This document shows, in pieces, positions 40,546-57,255 of a stretch of DNA of 64,000 nucleotides. The notes below the pieces were generated by a model. It was not told where the DNA came from. It ran no database searches and saw only the letters and a program-made list of their open reading frames with translations. A program made the translations under genes and the position numbers. The stretch is from assembly GCA_902547925.1 (NCBI GenBank), contig CACCQD010000005.1, positions 1 through 64,000 of the forward strand, written 5' to 3'. The DNA comes from an uncultured SAR116 cluster alpha proteobacterium. GTDB lineage: Bacteria; Pseudomonadota; Alphaproteobacteria; Puniceispirillales; Puniceispirillaceae. Each line of letters begins with the position of its first letter. Position 1 is the stretch's first letter.

Positions 40546-40549
40546 GGTT

Positions 40550-41395
40550 TTGGGTACTTATTCTAACACAACAAATCCTTGGCCCTTTTTGCTCCCCGCT
40601 TTGATTCTTAGTTGTCTATTTTTTTTGATACCAACGGTCAATATGATTTTTTTGAGTCTAACCACAGAAACTGGTTTTGGCGTCAACAATTTTATTTATT
40701 TTTTTTCAACCCCTTACTTGACTCAGGCTTTATTCCGAAGCCTCATTCTTGCCTCAGTGTCAACTTTGATTGCTGGTGTTATATCATGGCCGTTAGCCTA
40801 TTTCGTTGTTTTTTGTGTCAAAGAAAAATGGCGGCCTTTATTTTTATTAGCCATTTTAGCTCCTTTTTGGACAAGTTTTACGATAAGAGCATTTTCGTGG
40901 CAGTTAGTTTTATCTGACAACGGCGTTATTTCTTGGTTAATTGAGAAAGCCACCGGCTCCTCTGTGGCACTGGGTATTCTCTACACTATGAATGCATCGA
41001 TTTTTGGTCTTGCACTCTTTGGTTCAATGCTGTGTACTTTCACACTTTACGGGGCCTTGGTGTCCATTGATAAAAAATTGGTTGAAGCTGCGTCGACGTT
41101 GGGCGCACGGCCCTATCAAATTTTCAGAGATATAATCCTCCCATTGGGACTGCCTGGTTGGCTGGCGGGCATAGTTTTATCTTTCATCGTTTGTATTGGC
41201 GACTATGCGGTTCCCACTCTATTGGGTGGCGGATTGAAGCCGGTATTAGCACAAATTATGCTATCGATCTTGAAAGGCACCTATGACCTTTCACAAGCAG
41301 CGACGATAGCCACTATTCTTGCTGTCACTGTAATAATTTGTGCCTCACCACTGTTGTTTTTTAGGCTATTTAAAAGAAGAAGAGCATCGGCATGA
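40550..41395 (+). CDS. ABC transporter permease, PotB-like
   Basis: 281-residue inner-membrane permease with six hydrophobic segments and the cytoplasmic EAA loop (LVEAASTLGARPYQIFRDIILPLGLPG) that contacts the ATPase. The N-terminus begins with TM1 (WPFLLPALILSCLFFLIPTV). The start is uncertain: the frame opens with TTG at 40550, only three bases after GAGG, and an in-frame stop lies at 40535-40537, leaving little room for another start. It overlaps the next permease by four bases. Pairs with the PotD-like protein and the PotA-like ATPase. Confidence 0.85.
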   Translation: MGTYSNTTNPWPFLLPALILSCLFFLIPTVNMIFLSLTTETGFGVNNFIYFFSTPYLTQALFRSLILASVSTLIAGVISWPLAYFVVFCVKEKWRPLFLLAILAPFWTSFTIRAFSWQLVLSDNGVISWLIEKATGSSVALGILYTMNASIFGLALFGSMLCTFTLYGALVSIDKKLVEAASTLGARPYQIFRDIILPLGLPGWLAGIVLSFIVCIGDYAVPTLLGGGLKPVLAQIMLSILKGTYDLSQAATIATILAVTVIICASPLLFFRLFKRRRASA

Positions 41396-42219
41396 GGGAC
41401 CTCATTGTTAATAGGCCTGTCTTCATACTTCTAACAGCATTTTTTTGTGTGGTACTTTCAATAATCTATATGCCAATTTTAGTGATGATCATCTTTTCAT
41501 TTAATAGCGGTAGATATCAAACCCTTCCGTTTAGGGAGCCAACATTTGAGTGGTATGTAAATTTAGTTGCTGACAGTAGTTTTGTGGATAGTTTTTTTAC
41601 AAGTCTGTTTATGGCGTCGCTTGCGAGTTTAGCAGCAACCGCTTTAGGTTTCTTTGCTGCTTATGCCTTTAGCAAAGCCAAAATTCCATTTTATTCACTC
41701 TTTTTTGGTTTGATACTCTCGCCTTTAGTGATTCCAATAATTTTGATTGGTATAGGGATGCGCCTTCAGATTGTTTCTGTGGGGATTGAACCTGCACTTT
41801 GGTTGGTGCTTGTTGGACAAACTCTATATGTTCTGCCATTAGCGGTGATAAATTTAAAAAATAGAATTGATAAAATACCAAAATCAATCGAAGAGGCTGG
41901 GATTTCCTTGGGTTCAAGTAAATTGCACCTGATTGTCTTTATTTTGGTGCCCATTTGTGCGCCCACCATATTTGCTACGATTTTGTTAACTTTTACGTTT
42001 TCTTTTGACGAATTTGTAATCGCATACTTTTTGACTAATTTCGAAATTACTTTGCCCATCAAAATTTGGACATCGCTGGTGACAGGGTTTGAGCCAAAAA
42101 TCAATGCTGCTGGGAGTGCCGTTTTTTTATTTTCTCTAATTTTAGGATTTATAGCACAATTCATTCTGCTTTTTAAACAAAGTGAAAAGCAAAACGGCAT
42201 CGAACCAAGAGAAATGTAA
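41392..42219 (+). CDS. ABC transporter permease, PotC-like
   Basis: 275-residue second permease of the polyamine-type importer. Six membrane segments with the EAA motif IEEAGISLGSSKLHLIVFIL. Its ATG overlaps the upstream gene's stop (ATGA at 41392), so the two subunits are translationally coupled and likely made in equal amounts. The C-terminal helix (AVFLFSLILGFIAQFILLF) is followed by a short polar tail. Confidence 0.87.
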   Translation: MRDLIVNRPVFILLTAFFCVVLSIIYMPILVMIIFSFNSGRYQTLPFREPTFEWYVNLVADSSFVDSFFTSLFMASLASLAATALGFFAAYAFSKAKIPFYSLFFGLILSPLVIPIILIGIGMRLQIVSVGIEPALWLVLVGQTLYVLPLAVINLKNRIDKIPKSIEEAGISLGSSKLHLIVFILVPICAPTIFATILLTFTFSFDEFVIAYFLTNFEITLPIKIWTSLVTGFEPKINAAGSAVFLFSLILGFIAQFILLFKQSEKQNGIEPREM

Positions 42220-42225
42220 TTCGAT

Positions 42226-43308
42226 ATGGAGCTTAGACGTTCACCGACACTGGAAATTGGAGAGAAAATTAAAGCTGCGCAGAAAGCCAATAAAAAGCTG
42301 TATTCACTATCCACCCCTTCACTTCCCTATTACAGAGATGAACTGAAGACTGATTGTTCTTGGGGTAGTTTGTCGCCACCTTCTGGATTCCCAGAATTAA
42401 TAGACCAGACAAAAATTGATTTATTTGCGGGATGGGATGTCTTCAATCATCAAGTTGTAATAACAGCCGGTGCGAAAGCTTCATTATTTGCAATTTTAAA
42501 GTCAATTACAGAAGCGCAGGATAAAATTCTTATTCCCTCACCATTCTGGCCCAGCTATTTCGATATATGCGCATTAGCGGAATGTGTGCCGGTTGAAATG
42601 CCTACTGCCTTCTCAAACGGCTTCAATTTGGAGATCGATGAAATCAAACAAATCTATCACAAAGAGAAGTTTAGGGTCATCATGTTCAGCAACCCTAATA
42701 ATCCGACTGGAATAATTTATGATGGTGATTTTCTCAAACAGCTTGACAAATTTGCCCAAGACTGTGGTTTTTATGTGGTCATCGATCAGAGTTTTTCAAA
42801 GGTAATCTTTGATCATGACAAATGGTCTAAATCGCGTTTTCACAATTCGGATAGGGTGATTATCGTTGACTCATTCTCGAAAAATTATCTTCTTCAAGGG
42901 GCTCGTGTCGCGGCCACCCTCGTCCCAACCCATGTGACGGAAAATTTCATCAATATTCATCAAACTATTCTTAGCGCAGCGCCGGCACCAGCACAGATTA
43001 TGGCTTTGCAGGCTATGAAAAAAAAGTTGTTGATCCCATCACTTGCTGAACAGCGAGAAAAAACCCAAAATTTTTTAACTAAAAAGAAATTGGATTTTAT
43101 TGAGCAATCAGGATCTTTCTATTTTTTCCCTAGAATTTTGAATATGGAGGCAATCGAGGAAAGTGCGTACCATAAGGATATCTTATTATTAAAAGGATCT
43201 TTTTTTGGGAAAGGATACAACGACCATTTTAGGTTATGTTTTGCTAAGCCTATGTCTGAGCTACAAATAATTTTTGATAAGTTGGATAGTGCATTAAATG
43301 AAAAATGA
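42226..43308 (+). CDS. Class I/II PLP aminotransferase
   Basis: 360-residue fold-type I aminotransferase. Visible residues: the NPNNPTG motif (SNPNNPTGIIYDG), the VVIDQSFSK stretch with the cofactor-ring Asp, and the Schiff-base Lys in SFSKNYLLQGARV. Substrate unknown; the nearest relatives by feel are aspartate/aromatic-type transaminases, but here a dedicated catabolic role is likely because it follows the permeases by 6 bases and overlaps the aldehyde dehydrogenase gene by 11. Rather short N-terminus, with the first residues (LRRSPTLEIGEKIKAAQK) fitting the usual helix. Confidence 0.85.
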   Translation: MELRRSPTLEIGEKIKAAQKANKKLYSLSTPSLPYYRDELKTDCSWGSLSPPSGFPELIDQTKIDLFAGWDVFNHQVVITAGAKASLFAILKSITEAQDKILIPSPFWPSYFDICALAECVPVEMPTAFSNGFNLEIDEIKQIYHKEKFRVIMFSNPNNPTGIIYDGDFLKQLDKFAQDCGFYVVIDQSFSKVIFDHDKWSKSRFHNSDRVIIVDSFSKNYLLQGARVAATLVPTHVTENFINIHQTILSAAPAPAQIMALQAMKKKLLIPSLAEQREKTQNFLTKKKLDFIEQSGSFYFFPRILNMEAIEESAYHKDILLLKGSFFGKGYNDHFRLCFAKPMSELQIIFDKLDSALNEK

Positions 43309-44668
43309 GGAAAATATTGACTGTATTTCGCCTAACACCGGAGCCTCCTTTGATCAATGGTCTGAAACACCTGTTTCAGAATTTAGAGAAAGTCTAGCGA
43401 GAGTATCAAGAAATTCATTCTCAGATCTAGCTACTGTTTCTTCACGACGATCGGTTCTGCTAGAAATCAGTTGTTTAATTGAAGCAAATCGAGATGAATT
43501 CGAAAAGATAATTATAAATGAAGTTGGGAAGACCAGAGCTGAGGCTGTTGCCGAGATCGATTACGCCAAGTCTTTCTTAACATTCGTAGCAGACTTAATG
43601 AAGTCTGAAAACTTCTCAGAAAAAATTGATAAGGAGCGAAAAGTTCTGTCAGTTCCCCGAGGGGTTGGTCTTTTGATTACACCATTTAACGATCCATTAG
43701 CGGGAATCACCCGGAAACTGGCAAACTGCTTGGGATCTGGTGCGGGTGCTGTCATAAAGCCACCTGAGTTAGGTATAAAAACAGCGTCAAAACTGGAGTC
43801 AATCATAAAGGAACGGAGACTTGATCACTTAGCCACCTTTGTAAGGACAAAAGACAGAAATTTAGTTAAAAAACTAATTAACTCTGAAGAAATTGGCACC
43901 ATTAGCTTCACGGGATCAACCGATGTTGGGAAGATCTTGTCCGGTTACGCTGGTGCTAATCTAAAGCCATTTGTTGGTGAGCTCGGCGGAACAAACCCAT
44001 TTATAATTTTTTCAGATGGAAATATCGATAAAGCTGTTGAAGATCTTGTAACTAGGAAGACTAAATCAGCCGGGCAAGCTTGTTCGGCTCAAAATATTGT
44101 CTTTGTCGAGCGTAAAATAGCTAGTCAGGTTATAGATAAAATTGATGAGGCATTTAGAAATATTAGAGCGTTGCCCACGAATGAATATGGCAATGCTAAA
44201 ATGGGCCCAGTTCGCTCAAGAAGTGCGATGAAAAATTTATTAAATTTTGAGGAGAGGCTAACAAACGAAGGTGCAAAGTTGGTTTGTGGACTTAATGGTG
44301 ATAAAGCGACAGGCCGTGGATACATGTTTAATCCTGTCTCATACCTAAGCGACAATCCTAAAATATTTTTGCAACATGAAATATTTGCTCCATTGATGGG
44401 CATTTACATATTTGATGATAGGTTAAAACTTAAGGAAATAATCCGGAACAACAAGCAGCCTTTGGTGTTATATACTTATTCCAGTGACAAAGAGTATCTT
44501 GCGAAATTTACCTCGGGTTTGAATTATGGTTCGATTGGACTAAACCATACCGGTATTCAAGGGGCTTTTGCACCGACTGGTGGTTTCAAACAGGCAGGGT
44601 TGGGAAGAGAAGGGGGAGAATGGGGTCTGCGAGAATTCACAACTACAATAAACGTAAGATCAAATTAG
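43298..44668 (+). CDS. Aldehyde dehydrogenase family protein
   Basis: 456-residue NAD(P)+-dependent dehydrogenase. The nucleotide-binding region has GVGLLITPFNDPL and SFTGSTDVGKIL; the general base Glu is in GELGGTNPFI; the catalytic Cys is in SAGQACSAQNI; the C-terminal GLGREGG loop is present. Likely oxidises a semialdehyde produced by one of the neighbouring aminotransferases to the acid. Start overlaps the aminotransferase stop by 11 bases. A slightly shortened N-terminus compared with the usual ~480 residues. Confidence 0.86.
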   Translation: MKNEENIDCISPNTGASFDQWSETPVSEFRESLARVSRNSFSDLATVSSRRSVLLEISCLIEANRDEFEKIIINEVGKTRAEAVAEIDYAKSFLTFVADLMKSENFSEKIDKERKVLSVPRGVGLLITPFNDPLAGITRKLANCLGSGAGAVIKPPELGIKTASKLESIIKERRLDHLATFVRTKDRNLVKKLINSEEIGTISFTGSTDVGKILSGYAGANLKPFVGELGGTNPFIIFSDGNIDKAVEDLVTRKTKSAGQACSAQNIVFVERKIASQVIDKIDEAFRNIRALPTNEYGNAKMGPVRSRSAMKNLLNFEERLTNEGAKLVCGLNGDKATGRGYMFNPVSYLSDNPKIFLQHEIFAPLMGIYIFDDRLKLKEIIRNNKQPLVLYTYSSDKEYLAKFTSGLNYGSIGLNHTGIQGAFAPTGGFKQAGLGREGGEWGLREFTTTINVRSN

Positions 44669-44687
44669 GGGTGCAAAAATCAAAAAA

Positions 44688-45065
44688 ATGAGAGAAATAA
44701 TACAAACTGATAAAGCCCCGGCCTCGTCATCGCCGGTTTCTCAGGGAGCTAAAGGAGGAGGTTTGGTTTTCGTCGGTGGACAGATGCCCAGGGATATGGA
44801 CAGTGGTATGATTGTCAAGGGCGCATTGGAACAGGCGCGTCTCTCATTGAAACACTGTGTTACAATACTCAACGAAGCTGGGTCGGGAATAGATGATGTG
44901 CTAATCGCAGTTGTTTATATGACCGACCTAGGGCAAAAAGATGCTGTTAACCAAGCATTTAAAGAATGTTTCGGTAACAGGCCTCCAACTAGGAATTTAG
45001 TGGAGGTTTCTGATATAGGTGAAGGCACGATCGTAGAAATCGCACTAACTGCTATAGCTCATTGA
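44688..45065 (+). CDS. RidA/YjgF-family imine/enamine deaminase
   Basis: 125-residue Rid protein. The family hydrolyses reactive 2-aminoacrylate-type enamines/imines released by PLP enzymes, and pathway-specific members act as hydrolases in amine catabolism. Motifs: APASSSPVSQGAKGGGLVFVGGQMPRD, the catalytic Arg in NRPPTRNLVEV and the closing Glu in GEGTIVEIALTAIA. Its place beside two PLP aminotransferases fits removal of an unstable intermediate. Confidence 0.88.
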   Translation: MREIIQTDKAPASSSPVSQGAKGGGLVFVGGQMPRDMDSGMIVKGALEQARLSLKHCVTILNEAGSGIDDVLIAVVYMTDLGQKDAVNQAFKECFGNRPPTRNLVEVSDIGEGTIVEIALTAIAH

Positions 45066-45743
45066 AAAGCCTTTTCTTGGCCTTATGCGAGACAATCTTT
45101 TTGGAGACCTTTGGCGTTTCAACTCTTTTCGCATGTTAAAAATTAGAAAGTTAGGCTTGTTTTTGACTATGTTTATTATTCGTATATCCGAATTTTTGCT
45201 AAGCATGATTATGACATCTCTATAGATAGAATTGCCAATAAAAATCTTTTCAAAGAAAGTCATAAAAAGAGTGGACGGTAAGTAAGAAATTGTACCAATG
45301 CCCCTTAGATGCATTCGCACATATTTGTCAATTTATCGAGGACAAAACTTATCTACGAGAAGTAATTCCAATTGCATAAGTCATCATTAAATTTCCAGCA
45401 TAAATTTCACACCGTAAACTAGCTATATGCTAGGCCTAAATCTCATTAATCATAGTTCGAAACAGGTATAAGTTTTCATTAATTTCTTTCAGTATAAACA
45501 CATTAAATTTTTTCTTTCTGTATATTTCTATATATTCTTCAACGAGATATATCTGATCGCAAACCATGCAAAAAAGTTAACAGAGTTAATATTTCAAAAA
45601 TTAATTGGGTTGATCCTAGCCTCTGTAATGCTTCTGAACACATTTAAAATCTTATTAATTGTCATTACGGCACGCATATTAGTTTCCAGTGCATTAGGCA
45701 ATGCTTTATGATCGGAGTAATCATCACCATGCGGTAAATTAAC
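45066..45743. other. 678-bp AT-rich spacer within island unit A
   Basis: I find no supported gene. A 91-codon minus-strand frame (45045-45320) overlaps the RidA gene end, has a composition like random AT-rich DNA and no family resemblance. The spacer separates the transporter's permease genes from its ATPase gene, so a promoter for the ATPase-aminotransferase pair should lie near its right end. No clear terminator or riboswitch was seen. Confidence 0.5.
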
Positions 45744-46796
45744 ATGACCCTAATTTTAAGAAATATTGTCAAAAATTTTGGTAAAATTTGCGCAGTGGAC
45801 AATATTTCTTTTGAAGTCGAGGACGGCGAATTTCTTACATTACTGGGACCGTCTGGCTGTGGAAAAACCACTATTCTTAGAACAATTGCAGGCTTAGAAA
45901 ATTTGACAAGTGGTCGAGTGTTCTTAGATGGCACTGATATCTCGAATGAAAGCCCGACGAAACGCGATGTTTCCATAATGTTTCAAGATTATGCGTTGTT
46001 TCCACACATGTCGATAACTGAAAATGTTGCATATGGGCTAAGAATGAGAGGGGTCTCTAAAGTTGAACGAAACAAGCTTTCTAACAAATGGCTTGAAACA
46101 ATGCAGTTATCAGGTTTTGGTAACCGCCTTCCATCAGAATTATCGGGCGGGCAAAAACAGAGAGCAGCCCTCGCGAGAGCATTGATTACAAGTCCTAAAA
46201 TTTTGCTTCTGGATGAGCCACTAAGTGCTTTAGATGCGAATTTAAGAGTAAAGTTGCGTGAAGAGTTAAGAAAAATCCACAGTAAAGTTGGTACTACTTT
46301 TATTTGTGTAACTCATGATCAAGAAGAAGCAATGGCGTTAAGCGATAGGATAGCAATCTTAAAAGAAGGCAAAATAGAGCAAATGGGGTCGCCAAATAAG
46401 TTATATGATGAACCTAAAACAGAGTTTGTAGCTGAGTTTTTTGGGAAATGCGCATTATGGCCTTTACATAAAAAAGACGGTAACACTTTTCTTGCTGGAA
46501 CGAATATGGAATGCAAAGTAAGAAACGCAACCAATCTTGATAAATGTAAGGTGGTTATAAGACCAGAGTATCTTAAGGTCTTCGCGAAAGGGAAGAAAAC
46601 ACAAAATTCTCTAAATGCAAAAGTCTTAGATGTTCTGCCGAAGGGATCTAACAACCAAGTCACTGTAGAATTTGAAAATGGTCTGATTTTAGAATTACAA
46701 GTTCCCCGGTCTCAAAAATTACCACCCTTATCAACAAATGTTCAAATAAAGATGCTAACAACAAATCTTCATTCAATTGCTAGCCGGTTGAATTAG
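45744..46796 (+). CDS. Polyamine-type ABC transporter ATPase, PotA-like
   Basis: 350 residues: ABC ATPase domain (Walker A GPSGCGKTT, Q-loop MFQDYALFPHMS, signature ELSGGQKQR, Walker B ILLLDEPLSALD, switch His in CVTHDQEEA) and a C-terminal TOBE-type regulatory domain (~240-350). It energises the importer whose binding protein and permeases lie 37998-42219. It is the only transport ATPase in the island. The following aminotransferase starts on its last base. Confidence 0.88.
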   Translation: MTLILRNIVKNFGKICAVDNISFEVEDGEFLTLLGPSGCGKTTILRTIAGLENLTSGRVFLDGTDISNESPTKRDVSIMFQDYALFPHMSITENVAYGLRMRGVSKVERNKLSNKWLETMQLSGFGNRLPSELSGGQKQRAALARALITSPKILLLDEPLSALDANLRVKLREELRKIHSKVGTTFICVTHDQEEAMALSDRIAILKEGKIEQMGSPNKLYDEPKTEFVAEFFGKCALWPLHKKDGNTFLAGTNMECKVRNATNLDKCKVVIRPEYLKVFAKGKKTQNSLNAKVLDVLPKGSNNQVTVEFENGLILELQVPRSQKLPPLSTNVQIKMLTTNLHSIASRLN

Positions 46797-48049
46797 TGAA
46801 AAATTTAATTTCAACACGAAAATTTGAGAGCTCCGCTGTTAATACGTTCAAATTATCTCAAAACCCCCAGGTGTTTGTGAGAGGGGATGGGCCATGGCTA
46901 TTTTCTGAGAATGATGAAAAGTACTTAGATTTAGTGTGCGGCTCTGCAACTTCTAATCTTGGTCATAACCACCCTGAACAAATAAAGGCCATTAAAGAGG
47001 CAACAGAAACGGGAATATTACATACAGGAACAAGGTTGATATCGCCATATCGAGCTAAGCTATATGACATCTTAAGTGATTATATGGGAACAAAAGATAT
47101 TTCCATCCACTTATTAAACTCGGGTGCGGAAGCAATTGAAACAGCAATAAAATTAACTCGCTTTGTTTCCCGTAAGCAAAAATTTATATCTTTCGAGGGT
47201 GGATATCACGGCAGAACTCTAGGTGCTCTCAGCTTAACCCATGCTGAAGAAATTAGAAGCCCATTCATTGGGAATATTGGAGACTTTGTAACTTTCGCAC
47301 CTTATCCAAGAGATGAGGCCGAGGTTCAGCACTGTTTAGAAAAGTGTTCAGAAATTTTTGAATATTCGAAGTCTGTTGGTGATCCGGTAGCGGGTATTGT
47401 TGTAGAAGCCATACAAGGAGTTTCGGGCGTATGGGGCCCTTTTCCAGCTTTTTTACAGGGTATTCATGATTTGGCGAAGTTAAATGATGCTCTCCTTATC
47501 ACAGATGAAATCTGGTCAGGTTTGGGTCGGTCTGGCAAAAAATTCGCCTTTCATTTTTCTGACGTTTCTCCAGATCTCATAATTCTTGGCAAGGGATTGT
47601 CATCTTCAATACCTCTTTCCGCCGTAATTGCAAAAGGCGATTTATTACAAAAATGGCCACCTGGGGCGCATACGTCGACATTTCAGGGTAATCCTATTGC
47701 TTGTGCAGTAGCTTGTGCCACGCTAAGAGAAATAGAAAATTCGAAGTTAATTGAGCATGTCAGTAATTCGATCGCTTCGTGTTTTGGTAAGTTAAAACAT
47801 GATCTAATAAGTAATGATTTTGTCAAGGATGTGAGGTTTGTTGGGGCCCAATGTGCGATTGAATTTAATAATTCGGTAACAGCAACTGAGGTTCAAAAAC
47901 TAGCTCTTAGCCAAGCAAAACTCCTCACCTACGGAGGAGGTAGAAAAGGTGAGTGTGTCTTGTTATTGCCACCCATAAATATCGATGAAACTATATTACA
48001 ACATGCAATAAAATCACTTTTAGACATTATTTCTCAACGACTTCCATAA
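46796..48049 (+). CDS. Class III (omega-type) PLP aminotransferase
   Basis: 417 residues, GABA-aminotransferase/ornithine-type fold. Motifs: SGAEAIETAIKLTR, FEGGYHGRTLGALSLT, ITDEIWSGLGRSGKKF with the cofactor Asp, and the Schiff-base Lys in ILGKGLSSSIPLSAV. It probably transaminates a terminal amine of a diamine or omega-amino acid to a semialdehyde. It starts with GTG sharing one base with the ATPase stop (TAGTG). Its 3' end overlaps by 23 bases the convergent fusion gene, whose aminotransferase half is a paralogue of this protein. Confidence 0.86.
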   Translation: MKNLISTRKFESSAVNTFKLSQNPQVFVRGDGPWLFSENDEKYLDLVCGSATSNLGHNHPEQIKAIKEATETGILHTGTRLISPYRAKLYDILSDYMGTKDISIHLLNSGAEAIETAIKLTRFVSRKQKFISFEGGYHGRTLGALSLTHAEEIRSPFIGNIGDFVTFAPYPRDEAEVQHCLEKCSEIFEYSKSVGDPVAGIVVEAIQGVSGVWGPFPAFLQGIHDLAKLNDALLITDEIWSGLGRSGKKFAFHFSDVSPDLIILGKGLSSSIPLSAVIAKGDLLQKWPPGAHTSTFQGNPIACAVACATLREIENSKLIEHVSNSIASCFGKLKHDLISNDFVKDVRFVGAQCAIEFNNSVTATEVQKLALSQAKLLTYGGGRKGECVLLLPPINIDETILQHAIKSLLDIISQRLP

Positions 48050-49985
48050 CACTCCTTTTTAGTATGTCGCATCCTCTTTCAATCAGAATTGGATCCGCAT
48101 TCAACGGTGGGACTAATCCTAAGCATTCACCATTTTGTCCGCATTCCCAAGTAATTAATCCGTTAGCTAAGGACAGCCGGCGAACTTTCCGATTTGTTTC
48201 GGGAGAGTCAAATTCTATCACCCAAAAACTCCCAATCCCCCTGACTTCAACCACAGAATCGTAACCTTGAAATTTTCCAAGAATTTTTCTAAAAAGTGAA
48301 CTTTGTTTTTCAACATTCTTTCTGATTGTCCCGCGTCTTATTTGATCTAAGAAGTAAATTGACGCTGATGCAGAAATTGGACCCAATTGAAATGTTGATG
48401 ATTGGCTTCCGCTTTTCCATGACGTCAGTATGTCTTCAGTAGCAGCCACCAATCCAGCTGGAAAACCTGCGGCTAGTGATTTGCCAAAAATTAAAACGTC
48501 GGGCAAAACATCATAATGTGAAAATCCAAATGTTTTTCCTGTTCGGCTAAAACCTGTGAAAGTCTCGTCAAAAATTAAGGGAATATTGCGGATTTTTGTG
48601 AACTTTCTCAGTTCTACAAGAGCATCCCTGTTGACAAACCTGAGCCCAGCTGTTGCTTGAATCGGTTCGATAATTATTCCCGCTAGAGGCTCTTTGTCTA
48701 AAGTCGATACAATATCTTTTATGGTGTTTGTTTTTTCGGGAAAAGTTAATATCTCGCAATTAGGAAAAAAGGGTCCGAGTAAGGAATTTTTTCCTTTTTC
48801 ACCAGACACGGAAAGTGCTCCAAACGTTCGACCGTGATATCCTCCAGTAAAACCGACAAACTTTTTAGCCCCAGTTTTATGCATTACACTTTTTATAGCC
48901 ACTTCAGTGGCTTCAGACCCACTAATTGATGGATGAAAACGTGAAAATGTAGGTGGAAGTAATTCACTAATGGTTGAATAGAATGTTGACTGAACATCTG
49001 TATGGAAATGAGGGCCGATATGGAAAATACCAGTATCTAACTGATTTTTTACTTCTTCAATAACTTCATCATGCCCGTGACCTAGTGAAGTTGTTCCAGA
49101 ACCACAAGCAAAATCTATAAATTGTTTCTGATTTTTATCAAACAACACGGGCCCAGCACCTGAGCAAAATATAGGTGGGGTGTCCGTGAGCGAAAAGGTT
49201 TTAGTACCGGTCGAAAGTTTTCCTCTTATAGAGTTTGATTGTGCAATTTTTTGTTTTTCAAACAGTACGCCGACACCCTTTTTAGAATAATCATATCCCG
49301 TGGATTGTATGGCATCTCTAACGAGAGCTCCCACAGCTGTAATAATCGGAATCCCCAGCACCACCTCAATCTTTGGAATTTCCGACGAGATTGATACTCC
49401 ACCACCAGCTATGACCAGAAGATCTGTTTGGTGCTGGCAATTCTGGGTGAATCTAACGATTGTTTCCGATAAAGATTTAGTAGATAAATCATCGAGTTGC
49501 TCTTCACTAGTAAAATTAAGTGATAGTGAAGATACAGTCTCAATGCTATTTTCTAAAAGATACTCCTGAAATTTTTTTGTGATAGTTTCTGAATATGGAG
49601 AAATAAGGGATATATTTTTTGTGTTTTGAGATTTGATAAGTTTTACGATTGAACTGCTTGGAAAAGAGACCGGGCAACCAAACGTTTGCTGCAAGCCATC
49701 AATTAAGTCCTCTTCGTGTTTTTTTCCAAAAATAAAACTAGCAGCGTGGTCGCCACAAGCCACGCTGTCTAATTTGGTTGTTGGAAATAACTTTGCTGTT
49801 TGTCTCAAGAGTTCTAGAGAAGAATATTTTTGTAAATTATTCTCACTTAACTCTTCTGTCCCAGTTTCCGCTCCATACCTTGCTGTTAGCCACGTCACGT
49901 CAGTTGGCAAAAATTTCCAATATTCTTGGTCATTCAATCCGTCACACGGCCAAAGAAAACCTATCGTTTTTCTAAAACGCCCCAT
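48027..49985 (-). CDS. Fusion: Asp/Glu racemase-like (arylmalonate decarboxylase/maleate isomerase) domain + class III aminotransferase
   Basis: 652 residues. Residues ~5-245 resemble the Asp/Glu racemase superfamily branch with maleate isomerase and arylmalonate decarboxylase (VACGDHAASFIFG, SLISPYSETITKKF, IPKIEVVLGIPIITAVGALV). One Cys (77) lies near the first expected nucleophile; at the second the sequence is IAGGGVSI, without Cys. Residues ~262-650 are a complete class III aminotransferase (SGSEATEVAIKS, GGYHGRTFGALS, LIFDETFTGFSRTG, Lys in IFGKSLAAGFP). The ATG at 49985 has AAAAGGT upstream; a TTG at 50003 is less likely. Last gene of unit B. I know of no described protein with this architecture. 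Confidence 0.8.
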   Translation of the reverse strand: MGRFRKTIGFLWPCDGLNDQEYWKFLPTDVTWLTARYGAETGTEELSENNLQKYSSLELLRQTAKLFPTTKLDSVACGDHAASFIFGKKHEEDLIDGLQQTFGCPVSFPSSSIVKLIKSQNTKNISLISPYSETITKKFQEYLLENSIETVSSLSLNFTSEEQLDDLSTKSLSETIVRFTQNCQHQTDLLVIAGGGVSISSEIPKIEVVLGIPIITAVGALVRDAIQSTGYDYSKKGVGVLFEKQKIAQSNSIRGKLSTGTKTFSLTDTPPIFCSGAGPVLFDKNQKQFIDFACGSGTTSLGHGHDEVIEEVKNQLDTGIFHIGPHFHTDVQSTFYSTISELLPPTFSRFHPSISGSEATEVAIKSVMHKTGAKKFVGFTGGYHGRTFGALSVSGEKGKNSLLGPFFPNCEILTFPEKTNTIKDIVSTLDKEPLAGIIIEPIQATAGLRFVNRDALVELRKFTKIRNIPLIFDETFTGFSRTGKTFGFSHYDVLPDVLIFGKSLAAGFPAGLVAATEDILTSWKSGSQSSTFQLGPISASASIYFLDQIRRGTIRKNVEKQSSLFRKILGKFQGYDSVVEVRGIGSFWVIEFDSPETNRKVRRLSLANGLITWECGQNGECLGLVPPLNADPILIERGCDILKRSVMEVVEK

Positions 49986-50011
49986 TTTTGCCGACCTTTT
50001 CAATTAGATTT

Positions 50012-51247
50012 TTAGCAGTTTTCTGTATAGGCTATTGAGTTAATACGACAATTTCTCATTTTCAAAAAAGAATATTTAAGGCTATTTGCTATTTCGTTTT
50101 CACTTAGTGGTACCGGAATTTCAGAAGGGATAAGTCCATAATTGCTGACACTCATTGCTAAATGTTCAATGTTTGAGTCCTGTAACCGGACGAGCTCAAG
50201 GCATCTTTTTATATCAATTTGTTGAATTATTTTATTGAGGTCTTTGAGACTAAGTGCCTTGAATAAATCGAGTTGCTGATTGATCGTCCGCATATTTTTT
50301 TCCGTTTGCAAATTTGTCGTTTCAAAGTAGATTTGCATTCTACCAATTTGTGAAAAAAATTCAGGATAAACAGTTAATTGATTACAATTAACACGATGTT
50401 TTTCTAATGCTTTAGAAAAACCTAAACCATCTTTTGAATTGAAAGCAAACGCCGCCAGCCAAAAGCTGTAATAATCTTTTGACTGACTTGCTCTAAACGG
50501 AAGACTTGCGACTACCTTTTGCCTTTCAACGTTTGCACTGGCCTTAGTGATACCACCACCCCAAGTTGGGATTGTGAGAGTTGGATGACTTTTTGTTTGT
50601 AAGCTTGAAAAAAAGTTTTCACAGCATTCTACAAGGCTTTCATGGTTTATTTTACCGACCGCACATATAAGGCTATTCGTTGCCAAATATTCGCTTTTTA
50701 GGAATTTTTGCAAATCGTCCAATTGAATTGTTGAAACTGAATCAGTCGACCCAGTTATAGGTCTGCCAAGGTTTTGATGCGGAAAGCATATTGAATTTAA
50801 AGCGTTAAAAAGTCTCTCGTTTGGGTCTGCTGAAAGCGACATCATTTCTTTTTGAATATCTGATTTTGCGTCCTGCATGCTTCGGATAGACAAAAGATTG
50901 CCTGAAAAAATATCCCAAAATAATTTAATGCACGTTGGAATGCTAATAGTGTCTGCGTTATCAATGAAATAAGCCGTATCCTCGGTGGTGGTAAAAGCTC
51001 GGATTTTTAATCCCTTGCTAGTGATCGTATCATAAATTGGAGATTTTTGGTCTCCATAACGTTGTCCAAAAACGGTATGCTCCAGTAAGTGAGACAAGCC
51101 ATTTTGTTCTAGTGGCTCGTGGCTGCTTCCACTTTTGATCCATAAACAGATGGTTGTGTTTTCAACAGCTGGGTTATAATTAGTGATAACTTTAAAAGAA
51201 TTAGAAAGCGTAGAACGGTTAACCTTTGTGGATAGATTTACTTTCAA
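50012..51247 (-). CDS. M16 (insulinase/pitrilysin) family zinc peptidase
   Basis: 411 residues. The inverted zinc motif HxxEH is present in LSHLLEHTVFG, with a downstream acidic ligand expected in the DIQKEMMSLSADPNERLF segment. The two-lobed M16B-type layout (N-lobe active, C-lobe ~190-400) is plausible. No signal peptide, so cytosolic. It begins with TTG one base after the permease stop, indicating coupling. A peptidase in an amidase/amino-acid-transport operon could trim an imported peptide-like substrate, or process a modified peptide as PqqF-type relatives do; neither is shown. Confidence 0.82.
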   Translation of the reverse strand: MKVNLSTKVNRSTLSNSFKVITNYNPAVENTTICLWIKSGSSHEPLEQNGLSHLLEHTVFGQRYGDQKSPIYDTITSKGLKIRAFTTTEDTAYFIDNADTISIPTCIKLFWDIFSGNLLSIRSMQDAKSDIQKEMMSLSADPNERLFNALNSICFPHQNLGRPITGSTDSVSTIQLDDLQKFLKSEYLATNSLICAVGKINHESLVECCENFFSSLQTKSHPTLTIPTWGGGITKASANVERQKVVASLPFRASQSKDYYSFWLAAFAFNSKDGLGFSKALEKHRVNCNQLTVYPEFFSQIGRMQIYFETTNLQTEKNMRTINQQLDLFKALSLKDLNKIIQQIDIKRCLELVRLQDSNIEHLAMSVSNYGLIPSEIPVPLSENEIANSLKYSFLKMRNCRINSIAYTENC

Positions 51248-51248
51248 C

Positions 51249-51899
51249 TTAAAACTTCAATCTTGCTTCTAAATGTTTTGATAAAAGCATTAGTAAACCG
51301 ACAATGACTAGGTACAAAACTGTAAGTTGGATAATTACCTCAACTACCACGAAATGAACAAAAATTAGATCGTTAGCAACTTTTGTTAGCTCATTTACTG
51401 AAATAACTGATAACAGAGAAGTTGCTTTTATCACATTCGCTAACTCATTTGTTAATGGGGGCAAACTTAATCGATAAGCTTGGGGCAGAAGAACTAATCT
51501 AAAAGATTGCAAACGTGATAATCCCAGAGCTTTTGCTGCATCTAATTGCGAAAAGCTAACAGCATCTATAGCCCCTCTAAAAATTTCTACTGAATAACCC
51601 GCGCCAATTAGCGAGAGGGCTACAACACCTGTCCAAAATTCGTTAAATACAATCCCAAATTCAGGGAGAAGAAAATAAATTATTGATATATGAACGAGCG
51701 GGGGTGCTCCTCTGGTAAATTCTACAAACCCGATAATGGCATATCGCGTAATGTTTCCTCCAAGCATTCTGGCCGCAGTTAAAATAACTCCCGTGCAAAC
51801 TGATACTACCACGGTAATAACACTAATTTGGACCGACAGCCAAAACGCTTGGACCATATCAGGAAAAATTTGAAGCATAAAAGCTAAGTCCAACGACAT
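51249..51899 (-). CDS. Polar amino acid ABC transporter permease (HisM/GlnP type), second subunit
   Basis: 216-residue inner-membrane permease with TM1 (MVQAFWLSVQISVITVVVSV), the family motif EFTRGAPPLVHISIIYFLLP, and the EAA loop DAAKALGLSRLQSFRLVLLPQA. Related to the adjacent upstream permease, with which it should form the heterodimeric channel. Gap of 22 bases. Confidence 0.87.
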   Translation of the reverse strand: MSLDLAFMLQIFPDMVQAFWLSVQISVITVVVSVCTGVILTAARMLGGNITRYAIIGFVEFTRGAPPLVHISIIYFLLPEFGIVFNEFWTGVVALSLIGAGYSVEIFRGAIDAVSFSQLDAAKALGLSRLQSFRLVLLPQAYRLSLPPLTNELANVIKATSLLSVISVNELTKVANDLIFVHFVVVEVIIQLTVLYLVIVGLLMLLSKHLEARLKF

Positions 51900-51921
51900 T
51901 TATCAACCCTTATGAGACTCA

Positions 51922-52599
51922 TTAGCGCTGCGAGAAGTTTTTTATTTGGAGCTTGGTGCCGATCCGTTTTTCTAAGTAAATAGAAAATTGTGTCATTAAA
52001 ACGACAAATGCTACATACAGAACTGCCTGAGCGAATAACATCTCTAGAAATTTAAAGCTGTCAGATATTATTGCGTTTGCAGCTTTATGAAGTTCAAAAA
52101 CCGTAATTACAGAAAGCACGGAAGATGCTTTTATAAGGTTTGACATTTCGTTTGCCATCGGAGGAAGCATCCTCAGGAAGGCTTGCGGAAAGACAATTGA
52201 AATAAGTGTGCGAAATTTTCCTAATCCTAGCGAAAAAGCACCTTCGTATTGGCCCTTTTCAATCGATTGAATTGCTGCCCTCGTTATCTCTATTTGATAA
52301 CCCGCACTATTAAATGATAGAGCCACTATTCCTATCCAAAAAGGCGACAATTTGACACCGGCCAGTGGAAGAAGAAAGTAGGCAGCGTAGATTTGAACTA
52401 GTATTGGCGTTCCACGTACAACAAAAACGTAGAAATCTATAACAAACGATACATATGCAGGTATTTGATAGGCTCTAAGTATTCCAAATGGGACACCTAG
52501 AATAGTTGCAATTAAAAATCCAATAAGACTTAATTGTATCGTCAACATAAGCCCCGGCAAAAGCCGGGGCATTTGTTCCATTATAAAAATGAAATCCAT
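51922..52599 (-). CDS. Polar amino acid ABC transporter permease (HisQ/GlnP type), first subunit
   Basis: 225-residue permease. It has the FVVRGTPILVQIYAAYFLLP signature, five or so membrane helices, and the EAA-like loop YEGAFSLGLGKFRTLISIVFPQA. It follows the binding-protein gene by 24 bases. No partner ATPase gene of the HisP/GlnQ class is present in the island. Confidence 0.88.
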   Translation of the reverse strand: MDFIFIMEQMPRLLPGLMLTIQLSLIGFLIATILGVPFGILRAYQIPAYVSFVIDFYVFVVRGTPILVQIYAAYFLLPLAGVKLSPFWIGIVALSFNSAGYQIEITRAAIQSIEKGQYEGAFSLGLGKFRTLISIVFPQAFLRMLPPMANEMSNLIKASSVLSVITVFELHKAANAIISDSFKFLEMLFAQAVLYVAFVVLMTQFSIYLEKRIGTKLQIKNFSQR

Positions 52600-52623
52600 T
52601 ATAACTCACTTTATGGATATTCA

Positions 52624-53442
52624 TTACCAAGTGGGCGCTTCGTTTGGAAGAAGATCAACAAAAGATTGCCCAAACCATTTTTGTTGTAATGAAGCTAGCG
52701 TTCCATCGTTTTTCATATCTACTATTATTTGATTAATAGCAGATCTGAAAGACTCGTCTTCTTTTCGAAAGGCCATCGCAGTATATTCTGCTTTCCACAT
52801 ATCGGATGTAAAGGGGATAACCGTTACATCATCACTCGTCTGGGCGAACGCTAATAGGCTTACTAGTGTTGACGCATATGCATCCAAGCGTCCGGAACGC
52901 ATCGCTGCATAAGCCACTTCGTCTTTATCAAAGGTTTTAATTTCACCTTTGTAACTAATGCTATGTTCTTTAGCTGCAAGTTCGAGTTGATTAATTTGAG
53001 GTGTTCCAGCGCCAGCGGATACAACTTTGCCACCAAGCATTGAGGGAGACGTAATGCCAGAGCTTTTCATCACCAATAATCCGGAACTTGCATCCATGTA
53101 AGGATATGAAAAATTGACCCGCTTATAACGTTCTTTAGTTGCTGTCATACCACCTAAAATCAGATCAAAATCTCCATTGTACAGGGATTGTATCACTGTC
53201 GACCAGTTTGTATCTTGTGGAGCGGGTGTTACTCCTCCAAGTCTTTTGCCTATCTCGTTGCCTACATCAATGTCGTAGCCAACAAGCTTGTTGTTCTCAT
53301 CTAAAAATTCAAAAGGTTTATACCCTGCCTCAAGTCCAAATACTAACTTTCCGCTGGATTTTACATCACCTAGTGTATCTGCCGTTGCGAAGCTGATGGG
53401 CAGCAAACAAGTAACAAGTGTAATGATGAATTTCTTTAACAT
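52624..53442 (-). CDS. Polar amino acid ABC transporter substrate-binding protein
   Basis: 272-residue family-3 binding protein. Sec signal peptide LKKFIITLVTCLLPISFATA with likely cleavage near residue 21. Mature protein shows KLVFGLEAGYKPFEFLDENN, VGYDIDVGNEIGKRLG, the DLILGGMTATKERYKRVNFSYPY ligand region (interior) and the C-terminal VDMKNDGTLASLQQKWFG. The aromatic/acidic pocket fits an amino-acid-like ligand but its identity is open. ATG at 53442 has AGGGAGA upstream and is preferred to 53463. Confidence 0.88.
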   Translation of the reverse strand: MLKKFIITLVTCLLPISFATADTLGDVKSSGKLVFGLEAGYKPFEFLDENNKLVGYDIDVGNEIGKRLGGVTPAPQDTNWSTVIQSLYNGDFDLILGGMTATKERYKRVNFSYPYMDASSGLLVMKSSGITSPSMLGGKVVSAGAGTPQINQLELAAKEHSISYKGEIKTFDKDEVAYAAMRSGRLDAYASTLVSLLAFAQTSDDVTVIPFTSDMWKAEYTAMAFRKEDESFRSAINQIIVDMKNDGTLASLQQKWFGQSFVDLLPNEAPTW

Positions 53443-53459
53443 TGGTTTCTCCCTAAGTT

Positions 53460-54950
53460 TCAATTTAAAGTTGTAGCCTCAATCGCTGCCAACTTTTCTA
53501 AATTTGGGCGAGGTCGTTTTAGGTCTTCGATGCCCAAAAATGCTGTCTCAATTGAGTGCGCTGCGTCCAGAAGGAAGGCGTCTTTGTATTGTTTTGCAAT
53601 GATTTGAATACCAAAAGGCATGCCGTCCTCATCTTTGCCGCAGCTTATTACCACAGCAGGGCATTGTGTGAGTGTTATGCCCCAACTAATTGCTTCCCAG
53701 TCAAGGTAACCATCATAATGCTTTCCGTCGATTTCTGATGGGTACTTATTTTCATGTTTGAATGGGGGGACTGAAGAAGCTGGGGTAATAAGCAAATCTA
53801 CATGATTAAAAAACTCATCACCGTTCCTAACAATTTGACTATGAGCTAAAAAGGCTTTTGCAATATTTTCCGAAGAAAGTTTCCGCGCTAGTTCTAATTC
53901 TCTGAGGATAACTTCTCCCAACTCGGCACCGAAATCCTTTTCCATGGGCCCGAAATCGCCGAGAAAGCCGATGCTTCTTAGGGTCATAAATGTGGTGTAT
54001 GCATTTGATAAATCTATACAGCCAGGCTCACATGACGCAAATAGACCTGTAAACTTTTCAATTTTACCAAGAAAAGTTCTCTTATAAAAATTGGACATAA
54101 CAGCAAATCCAAGGTCACAAGAAAAAGCGACATTTAAATTTTTCAGGTTTATTTTCTTCGCAGGCCGTAAGAGTTCAGTGTCCACTGGTTTAGAAAACGG
54201 GTCGACGCTGCATGATTTAGCCATTGCGCCTAACAGTAACTTGCAGTCTGCGGCTGTTTTAGCCAACGGCCCTTCGACATCAAATGGAGACCAAATGTTG
54301 GACCTCCTGTTGGTCCCCACAATACCATTGGATGGCCTCATTCCGGCAATGCCGCAGAAAGCTGCAGGCGTTCTCAACGAGCCCGCGAAGTCAGAGCCAG
54401 TGGCAAGCGGCACGATACCAGATGCAACAGCTGATGCACCACCACCTGTAGATGCACCTGCACTGAGGTTCCTGTCAAAAGGGTTACCTGTGCTGCCTTG
54501 CAAGGGGTTTGTTGTAGTCGCACCAAATCCGTGCTCAGGTACGTTAGTTTTTCCAAAAATAATAGCAGACGCTTTTCTGAGTTGAGCCACCACATCGTCA
54601 TCGCTAGATGCTAGATTATCTTGAAACAGCAGAGACCCAAAAGTGGTTTTTAAGCCTTTAACGTCATTTAAATCCTTCACACCCACCGGAAGAGGCAAAA
54701 ACGGCATTTTGTTTCTTTTTTTATTAGAAATTCTATCGATGTCGTGGCTGCAGTTAACAGCGTCTTCAAAGTTTGTTTCGACAACGGCATTAAGTGAGGA
54801 ATTAACTTTTTCGTATTGTTTTATGCATAGTTGCAAAATTTCAAAAGAACTTATTTCCTTTTTCTGAATCAGTTGCAGGAGGTCAGTAGCGGTGTATTCA
54901 CAAATTGGATCTACCATTATTAATGCTAACAAGCTGGATGTGATTTTCAT
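53460..54950 (-). CDS. Amidase (amidase-signature family)
   Basis: 496 residues with the Ser-Ser-Lys triad of the amidase-signature family: Lys in PVGVKDLNDVKGL, the central Ser in GASTGGGASAVASG, and the nucleophile Ser in GSDFAGSLRTPAAFCG. It hydrolyses an amide to acid and ammonia or amine. The family ranges from aryl/acyl amidases to GatA; this is not GatA because the tRNA-amidotransferase partners are absent. First gene of minus-strand unit B, 17 bases from the binding-protein gene. A start at 54917 is possible; neither start has a strong ribosome site. Confidence 0.87.
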   Translation of the reverse strand: MKITSSLLALIMVDPICEYTATDLLQLIQKKEISSFEILQLCIKQYEKVNSSLNAVVETNFEDAVNCSHDIDRISNKKRNKMPFLPLPVGVKDLNDVKGLKTTFGSLLFQDNLASSDDDVVAQLRKASAIIFGKTNVPEHGFGATTTNPLQGSTGNPFDRNLSAGASTGGGASAVASGIVPLATGSDFAGSLRTPAAFCGIAGMRPSNGIVGTNRRSNIWSPFDVEGPLAKTAADCKLLLGAMAKSCSVDPFSKPVDTELLRPAKKINLKNLNVAFSCDLGFAVMSNFYKRTFLGKIEKFTGLFASCEPGCIDLSNAYTTFMTLRSIGFLGDFGPMEKDFGAELGEVILRELELARKLSSENIAKAFLAHSQIVRNGDEFFNHVDLLITPASSVPPFKHENKYPSEIDGKHYDGYLDWEAISWGITLTQCPAVVISCGKDEDGMPFGIQIIAKQYKDAFLLDAAHSIETAFLGIEDLKRPRPNLEKLAAIEATTLN

Positions 54951-55091
54951 TAAGTGTTAAGGTCCGAAGAGTAGGTGTTTTCTGGGTTGTAGTCACGTGT
55001 TAAAATTAAGCTGGGTTGATGCAAAATAGGCACCGGTAAAAACGTCAGTGGACAAACAATTAAAATAAAACCGTTTTTTTAGGGTGAAGAG
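54951..55091. promoter_or_regulatory. Divergent amidase/ureohydrolase control region
   Basis: 141 AT-rich bases between two divergent island units; both promoters should lie here. AGGGTGAAGAG just upstream of 55092 is the ureohydrolase ribosome site. I looked for guanidine-riboswitch (ykkC-type) and mini-ykkC motifs on the plus strand and saw none. Confidence 0.45.
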
Positions 55092-56333
55092 ATGTTAACC
55101 AATTCAATAAAAAAGGCGTTACAACTGAAGGCCCAAAGGGAAAAAAGATTTCATCACCCTAATTTAGATGACCTTCAGGGTTGGAAATCTCTTGAAGCAG
55201 AAAAAGCCATTCCAAAAGACAGATTGAAAGAAGAAAAATCTTGGGCTCTCAAAATGGGACTGACAGGTGCTGAGAGCATTGACGATCGCTCGATACCCAC
55301 ATTTTCAAGGGGGGAACTACCTCATTTTGCGGGAATAAATACCTTTCTAAAAGCTCCGTACTCTGAAAACGTTGAAGACGTTAAAAATTATGATGCTACC
55401 ATACTGGGCGCTCCCTTTGACGGGGGAACAACTTATCGTCCCGGAACCAGATTTGGGCCCCAGGGCATAAGAAAAATCTCGGCTCTCTACACCCCCTATA
55501 ATTATGAGATGGCGATTGATCTTAGGGAACAAATGACCCTTTGCGACGCTGGAGACATTTTTACCATCCCGTCGAATATTGAAAAAACTTTTGATCAAAT
55601 AACCCGAGCATGTTCCCATGTTTTTTCAAGTGGCTCACTACCAATTATTCTTGGCGGGGACCACTCTATTGGCTTTCCCACAGTAAGGGGCATTGCTGAG
55701 TGTACGACGAAAAATATTGGAATTATCCATTTTGACCGTCATGCCGACATTCAAGAAAAAGATTTAGACGAACGAATGCACACCACCCCATGGTTTCACG
55801 CCACAAACCTTGGAAATGTTAGACCAGAAAATTTGGTGCAAGTTGGAATTGGTGGGTGGCAAGTGCCGAGAGAAGCAGTCGAAATTGCCAGGGATCGCAA
55901 GACCAATATACTCACTCTCAGCGATGTAGAAAAACTTGGGATAGAAAAAACGATCGAGATAGCCCTCGAATTGGCGTGGAAAGATACCGAAATGGTTTAT
56001 TTGTCATTCGATATAGACAGCATAGACTGTGGTTTTGTTCCAGGGACAGGATGGCCTGAACCAGGTGGGTTTTTGCCAAGAGAAGCTTTACAGCTTGTAG
56101 CAGGCGTTGCTGCCGAGGGGTTGTGCGGGATGGAGTTAGTTGAAGTATCGCCACCGTACGACCAGTCAGAGATCACCGCCCTTATGGCAACCCGCGTAAT
56201 TGTTGAGGTGCTTGGTTCCATGACAATGGCAGGTAGTTTAGGGAACCACCGCAAGCATATTGATAAGCCTGTTAAGATTCCTTCTGGGGATTTTGAAGGA
56301 CAAAGATGGTCAAATAATAATTCCTCAAAATAA
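55092..56333 (+). CDS. Long ureohydrolase (arginase/agmatinase superfamily; guanidine-hydrolase-like)
   Basis: 413 residues, about 100 longer than common agmatinases because of an N-terminal extension (1-80). Metal motifs: GGDHSIGFP, HFDRHADIQ (Asp-Arg-His where Asp-Ala/Ser-His is usual) and SFDIDSIDCGFVPGTG; LGAPFDGGTTYRPGTRFGPQ is also family-typical. The Asp and His ligands of the two-metal site are intact. The long form with these variants is the type that includes the nickel-dependent guanidine hydrolase of Synechocystis (Sll1077), as I recall it; substrate could be guanidine or a guanidino acid. It would release urea plus ammonia or amine. Confidence 0.82.
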   Translation: MLTNSIKKALQLKAQREKRFHHPNLDDLQGWKSLEAEKAIPKDRLKEEKSWALKMGLTGAESIDDRSIPTFSRGELPHFAGINTFLKAPYSENVEDVKNYDATILGAPFDGGTTYRPGTRFGPQGIRKISALYTPYNYEMAIDLREQMTLCDAGDIFTIPSNIEKTFDQITRACSHVFSSGSLPIILGGDHSIGFPTVRGIAECTTKNIGIIHFDRHADIQEKDLDERMHTTPWFHATNLGNVRPENLVQVGIGGWQVPREAVEIARDRKTNILTLSDVEKLGIEKTIEIALELAWKDTEMVYLSFDIDSIDCGFVPGTGWPEPGGFLPREALQLVAGVAAEGLCGMELVEVSPPYDQSEITALMATRVIVEVLGSMTMAGSLGNHRKHIDKPVKIPSGDFEGQRWSNNNSSK

Positions 56334-56342
56334 AACAGTAAA

Positions 56343-56741
56343 ATGATTACAAATACTCACGAACATGACGGGTTACTGCACTCTCACATATCAGAGAGAG
56401 ACAAAAATAAAGATATCCTTATTTTGTCTTCTGAATTTATAGAGGGATTTACTCATTCTAGTGACAAGATGGCCTATTTGAAAATTTCGGGGTTTCCTAG
56501 CGAATTAGCCTCCTCAACTGGCGGGGCACCCCTAAAACTCATCAATGCTAGAATTGAAACTTGTTGGCAAATTGGAACTGCGAGTCCATCCTTTGGCAAA
56601 ACAGAATTGACCTACCTTCCGTACCCAAAGGAGTTGGTTACTTTCGCAACCAATATGATTTTTACTTTCGTATCATTGGATGAAAAACAGGAAGTCGATC
56701 TGCTACAGTGGATTTTGGACAAGCATTTCTCTGCCAAATAA
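56343..56741 (+). CDS. Unrecognised protein with His-rich N-terminus, next to the ureohydrolase
   Basis: 132 residues, not recognised. The N-terminus has four His in ten residues (THEHDGLLHSH: His6, 8, 13, 15), a possible metal-binding tail. The remainder looks like a compact alpha/beta domain (AYLKISGFPSELASSTGGAP, LPYPKELVTFATNMIFTFVS) without membrane segments. It starts 9 bases after the ureohydrolase stop and is surely co-transcribed. A metal-supply or accessory role for the two-metal ureohydrolase is an inference from position and the His cluster only. Confidence 0.6.
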   Translation: MITNTHEHDGLLHSHISERDKNKDILILSSEFIEGFTHSSDKMAYLKISGFPSELASSTGGAPLKLINARIETCWQIGTASPSFGKTELTYLPYPKELVTFATNMIFTFVSLDEKQEVDLLQWILDKHFSAK

Positions 56742-57255
56742 AAGATAAGTTTATTGAACTAAGGCTAAAAAAGTTAAAATCAATAATCATTGATCAGCAC
56801 CATACCTCAAGCGGCGTATTGGCTTGTGTTCCGAGTTCTCTTGCCCTGAAAAAACTGCGACCCTTTTTCTCACTGTTAATATTTTCAGCAAGAGTTTACC
56901 GGGCGGCCATGAAACAATTTATTGGTTCCAAATTTTGAGGTTGATTTATCTAAACTGCAAATCACGCGCTTGATGCTTTCCAAACTGATTTAAGTAAAGC
57001 TTAGCTTCTTGTAGAGTGTGTTTCAGATCAAGACGCTTTTAATTTTTTACAACTCCCGTTGGGCTTGTGTTTTGATAATGGGGACAATATTCAAAGCTTT
57101 CTTCCGCGTTCATTTGATTAGAGGACTACCATTTAACCAACTTAAAAAATACCGTACCAGCCTTCACCAGCGTCCCATGCTCAGAGCGCAAGCACCCCCA
57201 CCGAATAACCCTGCCCCCTCTGTTTGAAAGACGGTCTGGGCCAGCAACCTGCATC
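56742..57255. other. Non-coding right end of the island
   Basis: About 510 bases with no supported gene; short frames here overlap real genes or lack any family likeness. Composition shifts from AT-rich to GC-rich at about 57160, suggesting that the true junction or an older scar lies near there. No tRNA or tmRNA was recognised. Confidence 0.5.

Follow-up and report, generated by a model that had tools for sequence, protein, structure and literature searches.

A conserved fusion of an AMDase/maleate isomerase-fold domain without catalytic cysteines and a class III aminotransferase on a SAR116 genomic island

Analysis of a 64,000-nucleotide stretch of DNA from an uncultured SAR116 alphaproteobacterium (hereafter the window) revealed a gene that joins a domain of the arylmalonate decarboxylase (AMDase)/maleate isomerase branch of the Asp/Glu racemase superfamily to a class III aminotransferase. 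This fusion is genuine and conserved, and the original prediction had placed it in the correct superfamily. Its clearest feature, as read from sequence alignments, is an altered active site, in which Asp79 and Gly194 occupy the positions of the two catalytic cysteines. The gene and its parts are as follows:

48027..49985, minus strand: fusion gene, racemase-fold N-domain and class III aminotransferase (single open frame of 652 aa; Pfam; homologues)
49251..49985, minus strand: N-domain, residues 1-245, AMDase/maleate isomerase fold without the catalytic cysteines (Pfam Amdase; phmmer against PDB; AlphaFold2; Foldseek; VIA-align)
49749..49751, minus strand: codon of Asp79, aligned with the position of catalytic Cys1 (AMDase Gly74)
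49404..49406, minus strand: codon of Gly194, aligned with the position of catalytic Cys2 (AMDase Cys188)
48030..49214, minus strand: class III aminotransferase domain, residues 258-652 (Pfam Aminotran_3; PDB matches to acetylornithine/GABA aminotransferases)
48480..48482, minus strand: codon of Lys502, predicted PLP lysine (invariant GK in a 14-row alignment)

The fusion gene and its distribution

The open frame begins with an ATG at 49985 and ends with a stop at 48027; the coordinates originally given for it were right, but the strand had to be corrected to minus. Pfam Amdase (PF17645) matches residues 72-242 (E 1.9e-16, 60.9 bits, cut-off 25.9) and Aminotran_3 matches residues 276-644 (E 8.2e-75). 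A search for the same two-domain architecture recovered a fusion of ~650 aa in 12 further SAR116 genomes, with one copy (G042) cut by a contig end, in a Natronohydrobacter MAG (L065; 649 aa) and, as a second more distant copy, in G1132. An artefact of assembly or annotation is extremely improbable: the source genome assembly is incomplete (66 contigs), but the same open frame recurs in the separately assembled genomes of 12 SAR116 relatives and in two other lineages, and this recurrence excludes chance and mis-assembly. Two grounds for doubt had been named at the outset, namely that the N-domain might not match the superfamily and that the homologues might be separate genes misjoined here; neither applies, since the N-domain matches and the homologues are fused.

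One member departs from this architecture. In G531 (L074 8384-10355) the two halves are separate frames in unchanged order that overlap at the linker, and it is possible that a single linker indel, real or due to a sequencing error, produced the split. The closest relative found of this copy, that of G1132 (N-domains ~61% identical), is fused; therefore, reading the split as the ancestral state is not safe.

The family is rare, being present in 13 of the 136 genomes of the order and in 3 of its 20 genera. When samples of 385 genomes of the class and 279 genomes of the phylum were searched with strict cut-offs, the window itself was the only family member, and one of the two samples also returned one generic two-cysteine homologue. 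Relatives were absent from the viral contigs searched, and plasmid records yielded distant free-standing N-domain homologues only. The fusion had been described as novel. In agreement with this, we found no published description of it, and no report of an AMDase fused to an aminotransferase was found in the literature searched; the architecture is, however, that of a conserved and narrowly distributed family.

The remainder of the protein is a full class III aminotransferase, as had been proposed. PF00202 aligns over profile positions 16-401 of 403 with 252 bits (gathering cut-off 30.5), and Lys502, predicted from the features of class III enzymes to be the PLP lysine, is invariant in 14 rows together with Asp473, with the neighbouring class III residues kept. 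An AlphaFold2 model of the full-length fusion (pLDDT 72) is weaker than that of the N-domain; for its aminotransferase region the matches are GABA and acetylornithine aminotransferases. With enzymes of this type (PDB 1VEF, 6WJ8, 7JH3) the fusion has the whole domain, the PLP lysine and the flanking motifs in common, but identity by structure search is ~25-28% and the fusion carries the additional N-domain. Among the NCBIfam aminotransferase models listed, none is matched by the aminotransferase domain above its cut-off. An unrooted tree of class III aminotransferases from these loci groups the fused domains with the G531 partner in a single clade (0.998), separate from the neighbouring AT3b genes and from the other class III members of the genome.

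Fold and active site of the N-domain

A phmmer search of PDB with the sequence of residues 1-245 alone finds solved AMDases at E 1e-10. The AlphaFold2 model of these residues, built from 14 family rows, reached a pLDDT of 84 and a pTM of 0.86, and a Foldseek search with it returned AMDases, maleate isomerases and unnamed relatives at ranks 1-28 (best E 1e-15). VIA-align gave Z scores of 28.7-23.2 over 216-234 residues against this branch, with a maleate isomerase at Z 28.7 (rmsd 2.0, 233 residues) and AMDase at Z 27.5 (rmsd 2.2, 233 residues). The model thus has the fold of the AMDase/maleate isomerase branch, and together with the Pfam Amdase match these top matches bear out the assignment made for the N-terminal ~240 residues.

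The active site was located by alignment. An ungapped alignment to AMDase pairs Ser76 with Ala81 and, by extension, Thr75 with His80 and Gly74 with Asp79, while Tyr126 aligns with Tyr131 and Cys188 with Gly194, as confirmed against free-standing homologues. Every member, fused or split, has Asp79 and Gly194. The free-standing homologues carry cysteine at both catalytic sites in 10 of 10 cases, counting those extracted in the correct frame and excluding wrong-frame ones; the fusion family has therefore lost both cysteines and has an acid at the first site. The second expected cysteine had been reported missing from the IAGGGVSI motif, and Cys188 of AMDase indeed aligns there with Gly194. For the first site, the original prediction was right that cysteine is absent, but it pointed to the nearby Cys77; because AMDase Gly74 aligns with Asp79, the residue at the site is Asp79 and Cys77 lies two positions earlier. 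As a general feature of the family, Cys77 was rejected as a displaced catalytic cysteine, since this position is Leu in G531 and G1132.

The rest of the pocket is largely maintained. Pro13, Tyr131 and Gly195, equivalent to P14, Y126 and G189 of AMDase, are conserved, and family alignment A4 shows Gly78, Asp79, Ala81, Ala82, Ser129-Pro130-Tyr131 and Gly194-196 to be invariant. All SAR116 and Natronohydrobacter proteins have Cys77 and His80; position 80 is Cys in G531 and G1132.

The closest known enzymes differ from the N-domain in their defining features. AMDase of Bordetella bronchiseptica (PDB 3IXL, 3DG9, 2VLB) has the fold in common over its full length, and both proteins have one protic residue opposite Gly at the two catalytic positions. 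Published criteria for AMDase are Gly74 with Cys188 and a dioxyanion hole of T75, S76, Y126 and G189 (PMC4996985). In the N-domain, Asp79 and Gly194 stand in place of the first pair, and of the dioxyanion hole Y131 and G195 are kept, whereas T75/S76 is replaced by His80-Ala81 in the window protein and by Cys80/Ala81 in G531 and G1132. The score against the NCBIfam AMDase equivalog (NF052327) is 70.9 bits, below its cut-off of 225, and the N-domain differs further from AMDase in being joined to an aminotransferase. The maleate cis-trans isomerases (Pseudomonas putida Iso, 4FQ5/4FQ7; Nocardia, 2XEC/2XED) provide the best VIA-align match, but at ~16% identity, and both of their catalytic cysteine positions are Asp and Gly in the N-domain. 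EutA, a putative racemase of 5-hydroxyectoine breakdown, belongs to the same branch of the superfamily and also occurs beside transporters, an aminotransferase and an aldehyde dehydrogenase (PMC5924519); the N-domain lacks its cysteine pair and scores 52.7 bits against the EutA equivalog (TIGR02990, cut-off 318). No dehydratase, cyclodeaminase, ectoine hydrolase or deacetylase family, as expected for eutBCDE, was seen among the island genes scanned, and with this and the weak EutA match an ectoine pathway was rejected. Since the equivalog cut-offs are missed, the AMDase residues are replaced and both cysteines of the racemases and maleate isomerases are lost, the N-domain belongs to the superfamily by fold, but the features that define AMDase, EutA and the two-cysteine racemases set it apart from these enzymes.

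The N-domain is under purifying selection and is maintained. Its dN/dS between close pairs is 0.13-0.23, which shows that it is not decaying, and the values for the aminotransferase domain (0.06-0.19) are of a similar order. Between the window and L055, identity is 60% for the N-domain and 69% for the aminotransferase domain; between the window and L065 the corresponding values are 37% and 46%.

Gene cluster and genomic island

The fusion lies within a conserved cluster carried on a low-GC island:

36802..57638, no strand: low-GC island carrying the whole cluster (GC profile; edges approximate)
37986..39140, plus strand: PotD-type substrate-binding protein
39199..40545, plus strand: tandem-duplicated cyclase/kynurenine-formamidase-like protein (Pfam Cyclase, two stretches)
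40550..42219, plus strand: PotB and PotC permeases, two genes (conserved position)
42226..43308, plus strand: AT1, class I/II aminotransferase-like PLP enzyme
43298..44668, plus strand: aldehyde dehydrogenase
44688..45065, plus strand: RidA
45744..46796, plus strand: PotA-type ABC ATPase
46796..48049, plus strand: AT3b, second class III aminotransferase (convergent with the fusion; 3' ends overlap by 23 bp)
50012..51247, minus strand: M16 peptidase (Pfam; SAR116 clusters only)
51249..53463, minus strand: HisM, HisQ and HisJ-type amino-acid ABC transporter genes
53460..54950, minus strand: amidase
55092..56333, plus strand: guanidinase-like (GdmH type) ureohydrolase (PDB matches and specificity residues)
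56343..56741, plus strand: 132-aa protein without a Pfam match, adjoining the guanidinase gene

As far as the contigs reach, the SAR116 copies have the same order: PotD, tandem cyclase, PotB, PotC, class I/II aminotransferase, aldehyde dehydrogenase, RidA, PotA and AT3b, followed on the opposite strand by amidase, HisJ, HisQ, HisM, M16 peptidase and the fusion, with the guanidinase-like gene and the 132-aa protein as flanks. In G042 no M16 gene occupies this place, and two additional genes are present in some genera. In one SAR116 genus (L042 10878-13123, L047 6942-9184) two genes that we named by eye from sequence, a glyceraldehyde-3-phosphate-dehydrogenase-like gene and an MFS-like transporter gene, separate the fusion from AT3b. 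The clusters of Natronohydrobacter and G531/G1132 share their core with those of SAR116, and the M16 peptidase is absent from them. AT3b is 34% identical to the aminotransferase domain of the fusion. Overall, the conserved cluster looks like an undescribed pathway for the transport and catabolism of a nutrient.

Several of the neighbouring genes have features of their own. The tandem cyclase contains two PF04199 stretches in 448 aa; no close relative of it was found in a sample of 398 phylum genomes, and no further cluster copies were found by plasmid and phylum searches with it. When AT1 and the PotD-type protein were used to search plasmids, only distant, general relatives were recovered. 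The gap at 45066-45743 is occupied in other SAR116 genera and in L065 by a GntR-FCD regulator on the opposite strand, and no recognisable copy was found there in the genus of the window. The HisJ/Q/M-type transporter has no ATPase of its own in the cluster, where the sole ATPase gene is of the PotA type.

NCBIfam models call the ureohydrolase at 55092-56333 an agmatinase; it is instead closest to Ni-dependent guanidinases (GdmH, 9FEK), with 516 bits to 9FEK and 514 to 7ESR/7OI1, and the four guanidine-specificity residues Thr, His, Trp and Glu described for guanidinases (PMC11410670) are conserved in it. In the SAR116 clusters the guanidinase gene is accompanied by that of the 132-aa protein, whose N-terminus is rich in His and which might act as a metal chaperone or accessory. 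L065 retains the start of the guanidinase gene at a contig end, and no close guanidinase was found in G531 (best identities 28-37%). As the core cluster occurs without it, the guanidinase may be accessory, and the case for a core function in guanidine or arginine breakdown is weakened. A search of Rfam at E 5 found no guanidine riboswitch near the cluster, and two published descriptions of SAR116 genomes do not mention guanidine metabolism.

GC content is ~0.36-0.44 inside the island and 0.53-0.63 outside, dropping from ~0.58 to 0.40 between ~37 and 57 kb. G003, a genome of the same genus that is 96% complete, has the flanks mfd-dsbA-PNPox-gst and DMT-LLM-ECH-HAD3-AraC side by side without the cluster, with one further transporter gene between them. 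In G034 the cluster follows the left-hand genes that also precede the cluster of the window. Regional GC over the cluster in other cluster-carrying SAR116 genera is ~0.37-0.40 (0.42-0.52 in the G034 flank), which would fit transfer from such a lineage.

Possible roles of the N-domain

We tentatively favor, at somewhat below even chances, a catabolic aminotransferase whose N-domain would perform one-sided, Asp79-based proton chemistry on a carboxylate-bearing substrate or product. Catalysis by the N-domain, its reaction and its coupling to the aminotransferase are all part of what we propose, and the location of Asp79 in the pocket rests on the alignment to AMDase. In this scheme an amino compound, imported or derived, would be the substrate of the C-terminal domain, a PLP-dependent aminotransferase of class III (omega-type), and the N-domain would act on the carboxylate-bearing substrate or product of that step. 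Asp79, the sole acid/base at the two catalytic positions, would donate or accept a proton on one face, and Gly194 would keep the opposite face free. Decarboxylation, tautomerization or isomerization would be the likely reaction class, not two-base racemization. The fusion enzyme would then be one step in the island-borne uptake and breakdown of a nitrogen compound.

By analogy, the Asp79/Gly194 arrangement may mirror Gly74/Cys188 of AMDase, in which a single cysteine opposite Gly carries out one-sided proton transfer (PMC12576825), and it resembles the engineered (S)-selective G74C/C188G variants. Engineered variants with Cys on the face equivalent to that of Asp79, such as G74C/C188S and G74C/C188G, yield the other enantiomer, the former at a much reduced rate (PMC12576825). 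Asp79 chemistry is supported by the retention of the fusion in 12 further SAR116 genomes, L065 and G1132, in a matching cluster, by the fold match to maleate isomerase and AMDase over the full length, by Asp and Gly at the two catalytic sites of every member with Pro13, Tyr131 and Gly195 kept, by an N-domain dN/dS that speaks against decay, and by the invariance of the PLP lysine and the class III residues around it. Against it stand the replacement of the dioxyanion-hole pair T75/S76, the inactivity of OpaE when its cysteine pair is mutated (PMC12661438), and a literature search that found no report of activity for a superfamily member lacking both cysteines.

Nearly as likely is a binding or structural role, in which the N-domain has lost catalysis and serves the aminotransferase as a substrate-binding, regulatory or oligomerization module, with Asp79 binding a cationic (amino or guanidino) group instead of moving protons. 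The loss of both cysteines in all members, the conservation of the rest of the pocket in alignment A4 and the lower conservation of the N-domain than of the aminotransferase domain in more distant pairs are consistent with such a module. An invariant acid at the catalytic position and strong purifying selection, however, exceed the needs of a scaffold, and the domain is full-length and forms a separate open frame in G531, although a single indel could explain the latter.

Two further readings are improbable. The N-domain could work as a racemase or isomerase by a two-base mechanism with other residues, such as Cys77 or His80, given their invariance among the SAR116 and Natronohydrobacter proteins; yet G531 and G1132 have Leu77 and Cys80, and the opposite site has no protic residue, being Gly194 in every member. 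It could equally be an independent EutA- or AMDase-like pathway step, fused for co-expression only and uncoupled from the aminotransferase, to which its sequence matches to both models and the separate frames of G531 would lend support. The scores lie far under the equivalog cut-offs (71 against 225 bits and 53 against 318), and since several lineages retain the fusion and the G1132 copy is fused, the G531 split may be a derived frameshift.

A broader form of the Asp79-based reading is possible but on balance unlikely: a cysteine-free enzyme of the AMDase/maleate isomerase fold, linked covalently to a PLP aminotransferase, would carry out a two-step reaction in a marine catabolic pathway that has yet to be described and whose substrate may be a guanidino or another amino compound. 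The pathway would spread between SAR116 and other alphaproteobacteria on genomic islands.

The known chemistry of this superfamily rests on its catalytic cysteines, and here a conserved lineage has replaced both and tied the domain to a PLP enzyme. Such a lineage would show the fold either to support new chemistry or to have taken on a new role in binding. Two transporters and three aminotransferases in the surrounding cluster point to a yet-unrecognized nutrient of abundant ocean bacteria, and the binding proteins of the cluster make the question of that nutrient directly testable.
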